From assembly GCF_024713975.1 (NCBI RefSeq), contig NC_091106.1:13976501-14040500 (forward strand): a DNA stretch of 64,000 bases. The letters are read 5' to 3'. The notes beneath the pieces are model-generated. The model made no database searches. It had not been told where the DNA came from and saw only the letters and a list, made by a program, of their open reading frames with translations. The stretch is from Paralichthys olivaceus (lineage: Eukaryota; Chordata; Actinopteri; Pleuronectiformes; Paralichthyidae). This document shows positions 5,884 through 64,000 of this stretch, in pieces. Made by a program: the position numbers and the translations under genes. Every line of letters starts with the position of its first letter. The stretch's first letter is position 1.

Positions 5884-7539
5884 TCACTGATCAACATGGA
5901 TCCTATGATGTCTGGAGAGGGAAGATGAATGGTTAAAGCCTTTGCCGCACTGAGTGCACCTGTATGGTTTTTCAACGGACAGGATGCGCTGTTTTGGGAA
6001 AGCGTTGTTAGGGAATGCCTTCCCTGTGGGGATGGTGGTGTACTGCTGGGGTTGCGGCTGCGGAGGCTGTGGTTGCTGCTGCTGCTGTTTGTTCTCCAAG
6101 TGAACTCTCTGATGCCTTGCCAGGGAGGAGGAGTGATTGAATCTTTTGCCACAGTGAGCGCAGGTGTAACTCTTTCCCTCCGAGTGGACTCTTTGGTGCC
6201 GAGACAGGGAAGAGGAATGATTGAAGCCCTTATCACAGTGGTGGCACATGTAGGGCTTGTCTCCCTGCTGATGCACCCTCTGTTTTGGGGGAGTGCCGTA
6301 AGACAAGGGTTTCCCAGGCTGCGGTGGAGAGAACACTGGATTCTGCAGGTGGGTCTTGTGGTGGCGAGAGAGAGAAGAGGAGTGATTGAAGCCCTTGTTG
6401 CAATGTCTGCAGGTGTAGGGCTTTCCTCCAGCATGGACCTGCTGGTGCTTCTTAAGGTGGCGTTTTCGGACGAAGCTCTTCCTACACATGTTGCATTTGT
6501 ATGGCTTCTCACCCGAGTGGATCCTCTGGTGCTCTCTGAGAGTGGCAGCAGCCGCAAAACACTTTCCACACTGTGCACAGCGGTGGGGTTTGTCTCCGAG
6601 CACAACTGCAGCATGGGTTTTCTGGTGCTGCTTCAGGTTGGAGGTTGTTGCGAAGCCCTTGCCACATTGACCACACGTGTACGGCTTCTCACGTGCGTGG
6701 ACTTCTTGGTGCTTTTTTAAATGCCTTCTGCGGACAAAGCTCTTCCTACACTGGGTGCACTTGTAGGGCTTATCCTCTGAATGCATCTTCATGTGTTCTC
6801 TCAGGGTGATGGCAGCAGCAAAGCTCTTACCACATTCTGAGCATCTGTGGGGCTTGTCTGGCAAATGAATCATCTGATGAGACTTGAGACTGAAGGCATC
6901 GATTACATCTTTTCCCATAATCTCAACTCCAGGAGGAACATACGGCTTTTCTTTCATGTGAATCTTCATGTGTTGTTTGAGGCTGGCCTCCACAGCGAAG
7001 CTCTCACCACAGTGGACACAGATGTAAGGATTCAGGTCCTTATGAATCTCAAAGTGTTGGTGAAGATCGGCAATGCTGCCAAAAATCTCCCCGCACTCGT
7101 TGCACTGCAGACCGTGGGCTTCATGTATGATTACACCATTCTCAGACTCCACTGTCAACTCTCCGCCATGGTCAGACTCCACTTTGACCACATGCTCGCT
7201 TTCTGTCTTAAGCAGCACCTCTCCCAGCAGAGCCTCGCTTCCTGTTGTCTTGATTTCTGCCCCCGTGAAACAGTGCATCTCACCATGTTCAACCTTGATG
7301 TAATCATGGTCTGTCTCGGCTACAATTGCATCCACACAGGCTACAGCACCAAGGTCCGTCCCCAGTCCCTGGATCTTTAAGTCGGCTCCATGGATCTCCA
7401 GCTCTAATCCACGCTTTTCTTCAGTCATGATCTCAGTTTCTGCTCCATAGTGAAGGTCGACATGGCTGTGGGCTATGACACACTCCGACCCAAGTGTGTC
7501 AAGGCCGGGTGTGTCACATTCAGTCTCTGACTCGGCCAT
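5884..7539 (-). CDS. C2H2 zinc-finger protein, 551 aa, 11 intact fingers
   Basis: This single coding exon starts at the first ATG (MAESETE) after an in-frame TAA upstream in the same exon; the exon's acceptor is near 7658. Residues 1-143 are acidic and contain three psi-K-x-E motifs (IKVE, LKTE, VKVE) suitable for SUMO attachment. Eleven C-x2-C...H-x3-H fingers follow from residue ~144 to 548. A twelfth unit between fingers 2 and 3 (after EKPYVPP) has lost both cysteines and is a relic. Fingers 3-5 and 6-8 are a three-finger duplication, and fingers 8-11 share the same recognition helix (FNHSSSL). A Gln/Pro stretch separates fingers 10 and 11. The family is nuclear DNA-binding transcription factors; no KRAB, BTB or SCAN domain is seen. 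I cannot name the orthologue, and the target site is unknown. Confidence 0.92.
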   Translation of the reverse strand: MAESETECDTPGLDTLGSECVIAHSHVDLHYGAETEIMTEEKRGLELEIHGADLKIQGLGTDLGAVACVDAIVAETDHDYIKVEHGEMHCFTGAEIKTTGSEALLGEVLLKTESEHVVKVESDHGGELTVESENGVIIHEAHGLQCNECGEIFGSIADLHQHFEIHKDLNPYICVHCGESFAVEASLKQHMKIHMKEKPYVPPGVEIMGKDVIDAFSLKSHQMIHLPDKPHRCSECGKSFAAAITLREHMKMHSEDKPYKCTQCRKSFVRRRHLKKHQEVHAREKPYTCGQCGKGFATTSNLKQHQKTHAAVVLGDKPHRCAQCGKCFAAAATLREHQRIHSGEKPYKCNMCRKSFVRKRHLKKHQQVHAGGKPYTCRHCNKGFNHSSSLSRHHKTHLQNPVFSPPQPGKPLSYGTPPKQRVHQQGDKPYMCHHCDKGFNHSSSLSRHQRVHSEGKSYTCAHCGKRFNHSSSLARHQRVHLENKQQQQQPQPPQPQPQQYTTIPTGKAFPNNAFPKQRILSVEKPYRCTQCGKGFNHSSSLSRHHRIHVDQ

Positions 7540-7658
7540 GAGAACACACTCCAACCCCACGACCTCCGTTTTCCTGCCGGGCGATTACTATTAAGAGAAT
7601 CGGGGATATAGGTTTGTTTTGTGTGGGGCGCGTTGGTTTCTTTTGTCAGTCAGCAGAC
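7540..7658 (-). other. 5'UTR part of the zinc-finger coding exon
   Basis: On the minus strand a CTTCTTGCAG acceptor precedes 7658, so this part of the exon is untranslated. It contains an in-frame TAA before the ATG, which fixes the start at 7539. Confidence 0.6.
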
Positions 7659-47700: not shown

Positions 47701-47922
47701 TATAAATGTTGAGACAGAATGTGGCAGGTTTAAAGAGAAGTGTTGAATCTATTCCTCTGTGTACAGGTGAAGAAATAGTTAAAGTCAAGTTTTGGGAAAT
47801 TGTAAATATGGGTGTTGATCTGAAGTTCTCACACGTGTATCTGAAGTTGACTCACCTGGATGTCCCTCGCCTACGGACTCCGACGTGAACATGAATGAGC
47901 CATCGTCCAGCAGATCACTCAT
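41996..47922 (-). CDS. mat1a: S-adenosylmethionine synthase (methionine adenosyltransferase 1A-like), 387 aa
   Basis: Ten exons in minus-strand order: 47922-47856, 45960-45883, 45569-45447, 45357-45245, 44686-44543, 43600-43475, 43377-43285, 43183-43001, 42913-42780 and 42098-41996. They join in frame to 387 residues, eight fewer than human MAT1A, all at the variable N-terminus. The enzyme makes SAM from methionine and ATP in the cytosol. Visible hallmarks are GHPDKICDQ (exons 1/2), [40 protein letters not shown] and GGGAFSGKD. Liver-type features are [26 protein letters not shown] and C-terminal KKLVF. At the position of the regulatory Cys121 of rat liver MAT there is Gly, as in MAT2A. The PRXL2A neighbourhood supports MAT1A; a mat2a-like paralogue is the alternative. 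Confidence 0.95.
42345..42660 (-). mobile_element. Near-complete MITE-like repeat in mat1a intron 9
   Basis: It runs from AATCTGCTTATTG through GATTAATCAATTATTGATGA to CTAATTGATGAATAGTTTCAA. The TAATCAATTA/TAATTGATGA edges form degenerate terminal inverted repeats. It is the reverse orientation of the element at 17480-17770. Confidence 0.6.
43630..43900 (-). mobile_element. Intronic dispersed repeat, reverse copy, in mat1a intron 5
   Basis: AAACTACCGAACAGATTACC is the complement of the GGTAATCGGTCCAGTAGT block at 32435-32830, and a GGTGCAGATCCAAATAAATG block further on fits the same repeat. Confidence 0.5.
44695..44741. repeat. (GA)n microsatellite adjoining mat1a exon 5
   Basis: About 23 GA units. 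On the coding strand this is (TC)n, lying 9 bp from the exon 5 boundary at 44686, so it serves as the polypyrimidine tract of that intron. Confidence 0.95.
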
Positions 47923-48018
47923 TTTGTCTACAGCACCAGGTACTTGGCGAGACTTGGCACACACAGGGCGAAAAGGTTCCTTGGTTCCAAGCAGCGAGCG
48001 TTCAGAACTGAGGGCTGC

Positions 48019-48024
48019 TTTATA
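48019..48024 (-). promoter_or_regulatory. Candidate TATA box of mat1a
   Basis: TATAAAG on the minus strand, about 97 bp upstream of the mat1a ATG, would place transcription start near 47990 and give a leader of about 70 nt. A second TATATAT lies at 48133-48140. The choice between them, or an upstream exon using the CTCTTACAG acceptor near 48040, is open. Confidence 0.45.
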
Positions 48025-48388
48025 TTCCCACTGGTTCTCTGTAAGAGAGAAACGAAGAAAGGGAGGCAAACAGCCGAGCAGCCAATACAAAGTCTATCCT
48101 ACAAAACTGCACGTCTGTGTCCACATGGCCCAATATATATGGCTAAGAGAACACACACGCACACACTCACTCACACACGCACATGCTCGCTCTGTCACTG
48201 TCTCTATCTCTCTTTCTCTCTCAAACACACACTCTGTCACTCACACACACACACACACACACGCACACACGTCATGTGAATCCATGGGACGGTCCATTCT
48301 GGGAGTGGGTGGGGAGGTGCATGATGGGAGGCCAATTCACTTTGTGGAAAACACTTGTTAACCCCTTGTGTACAATACGTTTGCAGGA

Positions 48389-55229: not shown

Positions 55230-56618
55230 ATGGTGACTGTGACCACGGTCCTGCAGTTTTTGGGCCTGTTTGTCACAGAGCTCATCAGCTCGATCACCGA
55301 CTGGTTCCAGACCAAACCAGCATGGGCCAACCTGGAGGTGCTGGAGGACACAGAGCTGAAGACCACAGGAGGAGGTGAGCCAGGCCACAGAATCAAGTAG
55401 AAACTACATCACATATTCTTCAAATTACTTCTCTCTTTGTGCTACTGTCCGTCCACCACAGCTCAAACCCAATAAAGAAGAGGGAATTTTGTACTAGACT
55501 GACAACTTGATTTATCTAACCCATGTTAACTTCAGGTAAATTTTTGAGTTTACGGTGAGGATTTTGTTCCCCTCACTTCTACAGGAAGTGCATCAGGAAT
55601 GGATCTTTAAATTGATCACAAACAGGAAGACATTTTTACAAAAACAGAAAATAAAAAAGTAAACCCATCTAAACTGAGGAATTGTATTGATTTGACACAA
55701 AATGAGCAAATGACATTCATGAATACTCAAAACAAAGTTAATCCCTGAGATGATCAAAACCCTGCATTTGGCACCTCAGATTATCTACGACAGTTATTAA
55801 CCCACTGACTATGGACGTCTTTATCTTTTCTTTATCTTCTGTTTTTTTTAGTCCATGAAAAACACAAAGCCAAAACCCTGTGGGAGAAGACTGGAGCTGT
55901 GGTCGTGGTTGTACGACGACCTGGATGATTATTGTGCAGAGAGGTATGAAATCACAAGCCTGAGCTCTGTATTCCCCTCACTGGTGATTTATGCTATTTG
56001 TGCTTCTGTCTTTGCAGGAGGCCGCTGAGCTGTCCTCTCTCAAGTCCCAGCTGCAGGACCTTGAAGTCCCGCTTTTTGCCGTGGTGAAAGAAAACCTTGG
56101 CAAAGAGCTGGACAGCTTCAAGAAGTACTTCTCTGGGAAAGTCTACGTGGATCAACAGGTCTGTTTTTGTAAAGCCCCTCCCCTACACATGCCTTTAGGA
56201 TATTAAGTCACACATGGAGGGGTTACATAGTTTGAGCCAATAAGCTGCTTTTATATTTTTCTCACAGAGAAATTTCTATGGCCCACAAAAACGATGGATG
56301 TTTCTCTCCATGTTCCTGCGTGTCGGTGTGTGGAGGAACCTGTGGCGGGCTTATCGAAGGGGCTTCAGGGGAAACCTGAGAGGTGAAGGACTTGTCCTGG
56401 GTGGAGTCTTCGTCATTGGACCCGAAGATCAGGTTTGGTAGAATTCATATTATCTGACAAGTGGATCTGGGTGTTTTCTTGTGTTATGATTGTGTGTTTT
56501 TTATTTTTCCTCTCAGGGTATTCTCCTGGAGCACCGTGAGAAGGAGTTTGGGGATAAAGTGAATATGCTGGCGGTCCTCAGAACAGCCCGGAAAATGCAA
56601 AACAACCTGGCAACATAG
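55230..56618 (+). CDS. prxl2a: PRXL2A/selenoprotein U1, copy 1, with selenocysteine at residue 74 (214 aa)
   Basis: Coding exons 55230-55374, 55852-55943, 56018-56158, 56268-56432 and 56517-56618 join in frame to 214 residues if the TGA at 55926-55928 is read as selenocysteine. The motif is RRPG-U-LLC-RE, whereas mammalian PRXL2A has RRPGCFLCRE. Residues 1-25 are hydrophobic (a signal-anchor-like start). A thioredoxin-fold core of the AhpC/TSA-like PRXL2 family follows, with LWEKTGAVVVVVRRPG, LSSLKSQLQDLEVPLFAVVKE and GLVLGGVFVIGPEDQGILLEHREKEFGDKV. It is a redox-regulatory protein; fish SelU1 is an established selenoprotein. A SECIS element is present in its 3' region (57498-57562). A pseudogene is unlikely: every splice site and all other codons are intact, and the TGA falls exactly on the catalytic position in both copies. 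Confidence 0.93.
55926..55928 (+). other. UGA selenocysteine codon (copy 1)
   Basis: The TGA follows CCT GGA and precedes TTA TTG TGC, giving a U-x-x-C redox motif. It lies 16 nt before the exon end. Reading continues in frame through the next three exons with strong family similarity. Confidence 0.92.
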
Positions 56619-57046
56619 AGCTCAGAATGTGAACGTTTGTTAGTGTGGCATTGCGTCATAGTGGATGATGTGGCCAAAAATTATATCAAGATAAAATGAT
56701 AGATATTGATAATTATCACCGTAAATATCATCAGGTTTAAAGACAGATTTTTTGGTTATATAAGTATATGTTATACCTCCTCACTGTGTTTACACAATGC
56801 ATAAGCAATAATCATCAATGTAGACCATATTAGACGCCTGTTGCTGCTGATAAAAATTATGTTGCGATAATTTGAATGCCCAGTTCTATGTTATAGTGTT
56901 TCCAGATTCATGTCTTTCAGTCTGAGGCTGGATTTTTGTCTACATCACTGTACCATGACTTACAACACATATAACACAAACTCTGCTCATGCTGCAGCTG
57001 CATGATCTCAATGTGTTTTAGCTGCTGCTGGTTTCAGGGTGTGTTA

Positions 57047-57409
57047 AAGGGATAGTTCACCCTAAAATAAAAATTCACTCATTGTTCCAACTCTAAAACT
57101 TTTGGAGTTTCAGGGGTAAACAGCGTTGCAGACAGATCCAGTACAATTGAAGGAAATGGTGACTCCTCAAACGTATATAAACAACAGAAAACCCCCCACA
57201 ACATGTTTGCATAATACGTTTGAAGACTCTGTCACCATTTACTTCAACTGTATTGGATTTGGCTGCAGCACTGTTTACCCCATAGACTGTATATAAAGAG
57301 GTTTACCCCTGAAACAGTATTTTGTGGACTCAAGCACTTTACCCACCCCCTCCCCCATAGTGGTGAGTAGATAATGAGTGCATTTTCATTTTGGGGTGAA
57401 CTGTCCCTT
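57047..57409. mobile_element. 363-bp terminal-inverted-repeat element (MITE-like)
   Basis: The left end AAGGGATAGTTCACCCTAAA and the complement of the right end (AAGGGACAGTTCACCCCAAA) match over about 35 bp with few differences, extending to CACTCATT. No open frame is inside. Internal blocks (TTTCAGGGGTAAACAG and its complement) are also inverted. The ends and interior resemble a frequent non-autonomous repeat in teleosts. It sits in the 3' region of prxl2a copy 1. Confidence 0.8.
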
Positions 57410-57497
57410 GAAGCGCAGCAACAACTAAAATGTGCCACTTTATAAAGTTTATTTTCCACTGTCTGCAAACCTGGTCTTGGAAGTGTGATGTTGTTTC

Positions 57498-57562
57498 GTG
57501 TGTTTTAATGAAGATCTGTTTCTAAAACTCTGCAGAGAGACACAGCTCTGATGTCCACACAC
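57498..57562 (+). promoter_or_regulatory. SECIS element (form 2) of prxl2a copy 1
   Basis: Lower helix: GTGTGT at 57498-57503 pairs with ACACAC at 57557-57562. The quartet is ATGA (57508-57511) opposite TGAT (57549-57552). The upper helix is 57513-57523 with 57538-57548, 11 positions with two T-C mismatches. Unpaired AAAA is at 57524-57527, then a mini-stem CTC/GAG (57528-57530 with 57535-57537) closed by TGCA. The quartet-to-AA distance of 12 nt fits the family rule. It directs selenocysteine insertion through SECISBP2/EEFSEC binding. Confidence 0.9.
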
Positions 57563-57657
57563 TAACTCATCACTTTAAAACAAGACAGAGTTGTGACGAC
57601 GTGATGGAGAATAAACAGCTGAAGTGATGGATGGCTCTGTTCTGTTCGACATCTCAT

Positions 57658-61550: not shown

Positions 61551-63576
61551 ATGGGGATGTGGTCGCTGGGTCTGGGGGCTGTCGGAGCCGCCCTGGCCGG
61601 GATCTTCCTGGCCAACACTGATTTGTGTCTGCCTAAAGCTGCCAAGGCATCGCTGGAGAACCTGGGAGATGCTGACCTGCGCTCCACCGTAGATGGTAGG
61701 TGGGCTTTCTGATTGGCTGTTTTAATAGTGTCACCCTATGTTAATCTTGTTTCTTCTTAACAACTCATAAACCCATTAGGAATTAACAGTACATCAGCAC
61801 AAGAATCGACCATTCATAGTTTTCTTTACTGTTGCATGAGGGGCATTCTTTGTACATGTAGTGAATGATGTGTTGTATGTTGCACATAAGGCTAAGCTGC
61901 TTTCTTACATCAGCTGGTTGTACAGATTAGATCACTTAGCCTGAAGCTGAAGGCCCTGTGTTATTCATCATAAGCATATTCAGCATATACATGTTCCCTG
62001 TGACCATGAACAAGATCTTTATCTCCATTTGAAGGCTACATTTGTATCTTCCGCACTAAAGTGTGAATAAGTTCTTGCAGGTCTTTGCTGAAGACGAACT
62101 TGTTTTCGAAACTGTTTCTTGTTTTGTCTGCAGATGCCACAGTCATCAAAGCAAGGAGCCTGTGGGAGACGAACGGGGCCGTGGTCATGGCCGTACGACG
62201 GCCTGGATGATTTTTGTGCAGAGAGGTGATCACATGTTTCTGAGTTTTTATTCAGAGTGTATTTCCGTCACATCTTCTCTGATGGTATTATCTCTCTCTC
62301 TCTCTCTGTAGGAGGCCTCTGAGCTGTCCTCTCTGAAGCCCCAGCTGGAAGAGCTCGGGGTCCCTCTGGTCGCCGTGATAAAGGAGAACGTCGGCACAGA
62401 GATCCAGGACTTCAGACCGCACTTCGCTGGGGACATCTACGTAGATGAAATGGTTAGCATCAGATCTTGTCCTTTCACAGTTTCGTATTATTTCCTTTTT
62501 CTCATAGTAAGATAAGAGAGATGTTTTCCTGTGTTGCGGTATTATAAAGATGCAGCACAGATGCAGCAAGCTCTATTTGACTCATGCTTGCATTATCATT
62601 CATCAAGTTTTTATCTTGCACGTAGAAAGACAGACCTCATAGTTTCAGCCTCATTTTTTTTTGGGCTTTTTATAATCTGGTTTATAAAAACCCCAGGTTT
62701 ACATATTCAAGTCTGAGCAGTAATTCGAAACCAAGTTGGAAGTGAATAAAATAAATTTTTGTTCTGTAAAAGAAAATAATTAGAAGAACTGACATTTTTT
62801 AGTAATAAAACCAGCAGAATGGATGTTTTTGGTAAAAGATTTTTACCTAAACAATCAACTGATTTATCACAAATCATGGCCAAACAATTGAATCTCTATA
62901 GAGCTTGGGTGTGGATCTTGTAGTTTATTAGTGGAACATGTCATGACCATTCAATTGCACTTAACATCATTTTAACAGTCTTTCTACGGGTAATAGATTA
63001 TTCATCATTAGTGATTACAGGGGAATGAAAACAAGTTGCATATCTATATTATAAAAAAATGAGAAATTCCCTCTGCATTTATCTGCTACTAGGTTCAGTG
63101 ATAAAGAATCAGTAAATACATATTTTATTAGAGAAAAAATCATGTTGTGAATTCAAAAATAGAAAAAAATTACGTTCATCTTATATTGTCTGTTTCTGAA
63201 CTGAAACCATGTGATTACAGAAACTCTTCTACGGTCCGCTGCAGAGGAAGATGGGGGGTCTGGGGTTCATTCGCCTCGGCGTGTGGCAGAACTTCATGCG
63301 GGCCTGGAGGTCAGGTTACCAGGGCAACATGAACGGCGAGGGCTTCATCCTGGGGGGAGTGTTTGTCATTGGGCCAGGAGACCAGGTAGCGCAGCACACA
63401 CCTGGACTAAGATACGATTCGGTTCAGCAGAGCTTCACAAAGCAGGCGTCTGTAATTTAACTGCATGTTGTGTTTTGCAGGGGATTCTCCTGGAACACCG
63501 CGAGAAGGAGTTTGGAAATAAAGTGGATGCTGCAGATGTTTTAGAGGCCGTCAAGAAAATTGTTCCAGCCAAATAA
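61551..63576 (+). CDS. prxl2a: PRXL2A/selenoprotein U1, copy 2, with selenocysteine at residue 74 (212 aa)
   Basis: Coding parts 61551-61695, 62134-62225, 62312-62452, 63221-63385 and 63481-63576 join in frame to 212 residues with TGA at 62208-62210 read as selenocysteine. The motif is RRPG-U-FLC-RE. The start MGMWSLGLGAVGA matches the mammalian PRXL2A MGMWSIGAGALGA start, and the exon with its 5' leader begins at 61516. A hydrophobic N-terminal segment precedes the thioredoxin-fold core (LWETNGAVVMAVRRPG, LSSLKPQLEELGVPLVAVIKE, GGLGFIRLGVW, GFILGGVFVIGPGDQGILLEHREKEFGNKV). Its first four coding exons are 145, 92, 141 and 165 nt, exactly as in copy 1. The tract before exon 62312 is a (TC)n run. 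It is closer to mammalian PRXL2A than copy 1 is. Its SECIS must lie beyond the window if it is functional. Confidence 0.93.
62208..62210 (+). other. UGA selenocysteine codon (copy 2)
   Basis: TGA between CCT GGA and TTT TTG TGC, at the same residue and same exon position as in copy 1. Confidence 0.88.
62453..63220 (+). other. Longest internal intron of prxl2a copy 2
   Basis: AT-rich with no exon or repeat of note. The same intron in copy 1 is only 109 bp. Confidence 0.6.
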
Positions 63577-64000
63577 ATCCTTCAAAGAGCATGCTGGATT
63601 CAGATCACAACTAGAACTGCGTAGTATTCAAATTTTCAGTTTGACGTGCTGAGTCCACCCATCACTGAATTATGATTATTACAATAACTTTGACATATGT
63701 TTATGTTGTCTAACATCACATTAATTTACTTTCGTTTACAAAAACAGCTATGAAATACAGAAGAGGGACAGTAATAGAGTATTTCTCTTTACCTCCGCAG
63801 ACACTTTAGAAGTTTCTTTAAAACGGGTATTATGAAGAGGTAGGGATTTAAAGGCAGCGTTCTCATTCAGGTACATCGTGCATTACTTTTAAGTTCACTT
63901 GAAATTTTTAATGAAGTTCCTGTTGTTTTGTTTGCTTCTCCTGCTCCGGTGCATAAATGTGTCTCAAACATGGTTGACAGGTGTGTGTGCGCGTGTGTGT
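63577..64000 (+). other. Start of the 3'UTR of prxl2a copy 2
   Basis: An AATAAA overlaps the stop codon. ATGA occurs near 63672, 63750, 63831 and 63911, but none has a paired TGAT quartet with a helix of the right length, so no SECIS is found here. The window ends in a GT repeat. Confidence 0.5.

Follow-up and report, generated by a model that had tools for sequence, protein, structure and literature searches.

The locus described here poses the question of whether a TGA triplet that interrupts an otherwise open frame is a stop codon or encodes selenocysteine (Sec). The window, that is, the whole stretch of 64,000 nucleotides that was analysed, corresponds to positions 13976501-14040500 of contig C14 in a genome of 588 Mb and 25 contigs, and it holds two neighbouring copies of the gene in question, referred to as copy 1 and copy 2. 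Copy 1 lies on the plus strand and has five exons, at 55230-55374 (145 nt, with the ATG at 55230 and the donor gtgagc), 55852-55943 (92 nt, bordered by ag and gtatga, its first two bases finishing a codon started in exon 1), 56018-56158, 56268-56432 and 56517-56618. All four introns have GT...AG borders, and joining of the exons gives a coding sequence of 645 nt in which TAG is codon 215 (56616-56618). The TGA at 55926-55928, within exon 2, is codon 74 of this frame and stands in the residue context RRPG-U-LLC-RE; apart from it, the 214 codons contain no further stop and no frameshift. An earlier note on this DNA had placed the TGA in frame, given the borders of the exon that contains it and claimed three further exons downstream, all of which is borne out by the spliced frame and its GT-AG introns, the exon borders being exact; the truncation to 73 residues that it expected if TGA were a stop likewise agrees with the position of the triplet at residue 74. 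Skipping of the 92-nt exon was considered and rejected, as in copies 1 and 2 it shifts the frame and leads to a stop within a few codons. Instead, the UGA at codon 74 of copy 1 almost certainly encodes selenocysteine in a SECIS-dependent manner, giving a SelU1 redox protein.

The same arrangement is found twice more in this genome. Copy 2, also on the plus strand (61551-63576; exons 61551-61695, 62134-62225, 62312-62452, 63221-63385 and 63481-63576), encodes 212 residues and has an in-frame TGA at codon 74 of its spliced frame (62208-62210), while a third copy of 220 residues, on the minus strand of contig C21 (L006), has one at codon 76. In all three SelU1 copies found in the genome the TGA falls in one common alignment column and exons 2 to 4 measure 92, 141 and 165 nt, and because of this shared column and these shared lengths the TGA is more than would be expected by chance. 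If gene prediction takes TGA for a stop, two adjacent genes would be cut short or wrongly spliced, and selenocysteine at codon 74 would be the better annotation for both copy 1 and copy 2. With copy 2 as the query, a protein search of the genome (E up to 1) gave 14 matches, nine to the C14 pair, four to the C21 copy and one to a relative on C2 that reads LRRFGCQVCRW, with TGT coding both cysteines; this relative with TGT at the Sec site is probably PRXL2B. A Pfam search found an additional gene on C4, in which a frame in another exon reads FLCYSCK and which we take to be PRXL2C.

A U/C-x-x-C redox motif is present at the active site of the domain in the SelU1 copies. Pfam AhpC-TSA_2 (PF13911) is found in all three proteins (copy 1, residues 83-191, E 4.4e-20), and AhpC-TSA (PF00578) also in two of them. 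All three match NCBIfam NF040769, SelL-related redox protein (copy 1, residues 50-203, E 1.1e-13), but copy 1 scores 51.2 bits where the cut-off is 120 and was not accepted as a member. When a profile of the three copies was compared with the PDB two sequences matched, both of them prostamide/prostaglandin F synthase: in 9us9 (E 2.2e-20) a C-x-x-C lies under U74-x-x-C77, the TGA corresponding to the first Cys, and in 9usa (E 2.7e-17) Ser-x-x-Ser occupies the position of U-x-x-C. This synthase (SelU3), which we take to be PRXL2B, differs from the copies described here in being a Cys form and a separate paralogue, likely represented in this genome by the TGT copy on C2. Mammalian PRXL2A differs in having Cys in place of Sec; PAMM, adiporedoxin and FAM213A/PRXL2A are assumed here to be one gene. 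Excerpts of the literature describe in this mammalian protein a PRX-like 2 domain and a redox motif with two-residue spacing, and a requirement of the CXXC for the anti-redox activity of adiporedoxin/PAMM (excerpt of PMC5150245), and they attribute a Prx-like2 domain to SelU and equate SelU3 with prostamide/prostaglandin F synthase (excerpt of PMC3473315).

Copy 1 belongs to the PRXL2A family as a gene for teleost selenoprotein U1, and as such it is an expected, ordinary case of a known selenoprotein family and of an already known kind. To the earlier note the analysis adds a SECIS for each of copies 1 and 2, the latter crossing the end of the window, and a further copy on C21. In the excerpted text of PMC3316567, all Sec-containing vertebrate SelU sequences fall within SelU1 and mammalian SelU1 has Cys, as the earlier note had said of mammals at this residue. 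The same excerpt traces SelU1c to the teleost genome duplication and SelU1b to an additional, percomorph duplication, gives SelU1a, SelU1b and SelU1c of bony fish as Sec-containing, with three Sec forms in fugu and pufferfish, and contains no mention of tandem placement of the copies. No difference from these bony-fish genes was found here, in a comparison made without direct alignment to the named fish sequences, and the gene set agrees with that of a percomorph fish in which three Sec forms are present. Copy 1 is probably SelU1b, copy 2 SelU1a and the C21 copy SelU1c, the first two labels being assigned because the N-terminus of copy 2 appears to resemble that of mammalian PRXL2A. In a search of open-licence papers, selenou1a and selenou1b found none, and SelU1a, SelU1b and SelU1c found only PMC3316567.

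An Rfam scan of the whole window gave a single match at the gathering threshold, SECIS_1 (RF00031), at 57498-57562 on the plus strand (37.2 bits against a gathering score of 35, E 0.00078). It starts 879 nt past the copy 1 stop, and 47 nt lie between its end and an AATAAA at 57610. A match lies 3' of the stop in the other two copies as well, at 63998-64063 on the plus strand for copy 2 (L005:98-163; 31.7 bits, E 0.014; AATAAA downstream at 64197) and at L006:4268-4213 on the minus strand for the C21 copy (32.0 bits), so that all three have one and only that of copy 1 passes the Rfam cut-off of 35. The copy 2 match straddles the window edge, with only 63998-64000 inside, and a scan of the window alone therefore misses it. 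The core motifs TAATGA, TAAA and TGAT are kept in all three aligned matches. RNAalifold, run on these three sequences only, predicts 18 pairs, of which five have both partners changed in one sequence or more and four are broken or gapped in one; the single-sequence folding energies are unremarkable (z of -1.00 for copy 1, then -2.14 and -1.62). Three TGA copies with differing SECIS scores would make a small natural set for considering SECIS strength and Sec retention.

A home-made SECIS scan lends weak support, since copy 1 passes its cut-off of -7 narrowly (-7.4). It gave four plus-strand matches in the window and the next 2 kb, two of which are the two SECIS, whereas the minus strand had none; the numbers of matches in five plus strands shuffled by blocks were 1, 1, 0, 2 and 0, and the gene strand of L006 gave one, the C21 SECIS. 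Like the sub-threshold scores of the other two matches and the folding energy of copy 1, a genome-wide SECIS-family search counts against the Sec reading: with an E-value limit of 0.001 and the best 150 of its 13358 candidates scored, none of the three copies is listed; the one match that is listed lies on C2, and none of 14 control genomes matched. When the E-value of copy 1 is converted to a search with a single family across the entire genome, it becomes about 0.002, and copy 1 could therefore narrowly miss the cut-off of 0.001. It also weighs against the Sec reading that a 369-bp repeat (57044-57412) separates the copy 1 stop from the SECIS, which starts 85 nt beyond the end of the repeat. 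With its 40-nt terminal inverted repeats, which are 88% complementary, and many dispersed partial relatives (at least 147 matching pieces listed, from the best 40 of 2256 candidates scored), this repeat is a MITE-like, transposon-like insertion. The other Rfam matches near copy 1 (12 of 13 listed) each fall below their own family's gathering score, and those to mir-3688 and mir-722 lie on the inverted arms of this repeat.

Eukaryotic decoding of UGA as Sec uses SECISBP2, eEFSec and Sec-tRNA. A tRNA-Sec gene is present at C11:16706979-16707064 (76.8 bits, in a loose search that gave matches in all 14 control genomes and exceeded the cut-off in five), and ARAGORN independently identifies it as SeC with the anticodon tca. 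Among the weaker matches (12 of 13 matches listed), the single other one that exceeds the cut-off, and one that comes close to it, were set aside as tRNA-Ser by ARAGORN. The copy 1 mRNA would carry the SECIS hairpin downstream of the stop, the UGA at 55926-55928 would be decoded as selenocysteine by this established pathway, and the product would be a 214-residue thioredoxin-like redox protein with U-x-x-C where mammals have C-x-x-C. The biology would be the expected one of a fish that retains Sec at a site occupied by Cys in mammals.

The coding sequence is conserved on both sides of the in-frame TGA, as expected of a eukaryotic selenoprotein. By the Nei-Gojobori method, after the TGA dS is 1.19 between copies 1 and 2, 1.05 between copy 1 and the C21 copy and 1.06 between copy 2 and the C21 copy, with dN of 0.31, 0.30 and 0.22, and before it dS is 1.23, 1.23 and 1.67, with dN of 0.60, 0.45 and 0.53 for the same pairs; these dS values are near saturation, and pairwise values average over all the time elapsed after duplication, which makes them compatible with copy 1 having lost its function recently. 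Past the TGA dN is well below dS and the region is more constrained, which is unexpected if translation stopped at the TGA. Were copy 1 a pseudogene or decaying duplicate, its TGA a true stop, this would accord with its being the most diverged copy after the TGA (identities of 81/138 and 83/140, against 94/138 between copy 2 and the C21 copy) and with SelU1b being missing in medaka and having Cys in stickleback (excerpt of PMC3316567). Such decay is very improbable in the face of 214 codons that are otherwise uninterrupted, the low post-TGA dN and a SECIS score that is the highest of the three.

Decoding of UGA as Sec is rarely fully efficient, and the codon might be pictured as a regulated stop that yields a 73-residue peptide, or as one read through without a SECIS. 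Nothing specific favours either version, whereas a SECIS match is present and Cys77 and the matched domain sit past the UGA, which leaves them next to no probability. Improbable in the extreme, too, is an assembly error for the Cys codon TGT or TGC: mammalian SelU1 has Cys (excerpt of PMC3316567) and the same-genome relative that is probably PRXL2B has TGT at the site, but the TGA occurs at three separate places, each with its own SECIS match. The earlier proposal of selenocysteine at the catalytic cysteine position is supported by a SECIS above the cut-off, the same TGA in two paralogues, dN well below dS after the TGA, the tRNA-Sec gene and the alignment of the TGA with the CxxC in a relative of known structure.

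The relationships among the copies are mixed. Before the Sec codon copy 1 is identical to the C21 copy at 37/72 positions and to copy 2 at 28/73 (55230-55374; L006:6235-6085), so that the closest pair before it differs from that after it, and the duplication order of the three copies is not obvious. Because copy 1 is nearer to the C21 copy before Sec and copy 2 and the C21 copy are closest after it, the duplication that separated copies 1 and 2 might be older than the published percomorph event and precede the teleost genome duplication or lie close to it in time; such an age seems unlikely. If it were true, SelU1b and SelU1c would form a pair of partners, and other fishes would have lost copies. 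The mixed similarity could equally come from gene conversion or from rates that differ between copies.

Elsewhere in the window, the minus-strand open frame 47785-48093 resembles, by eye, the first coding exon of methionine adenosyltransferase, and such a neighbour would presumably fit what surrounds PRXL2A in tetrapods. A second minus-strand open frame, of 566 codons (5884-7584), resembles by eye a C2H2 zinc-finger protein.
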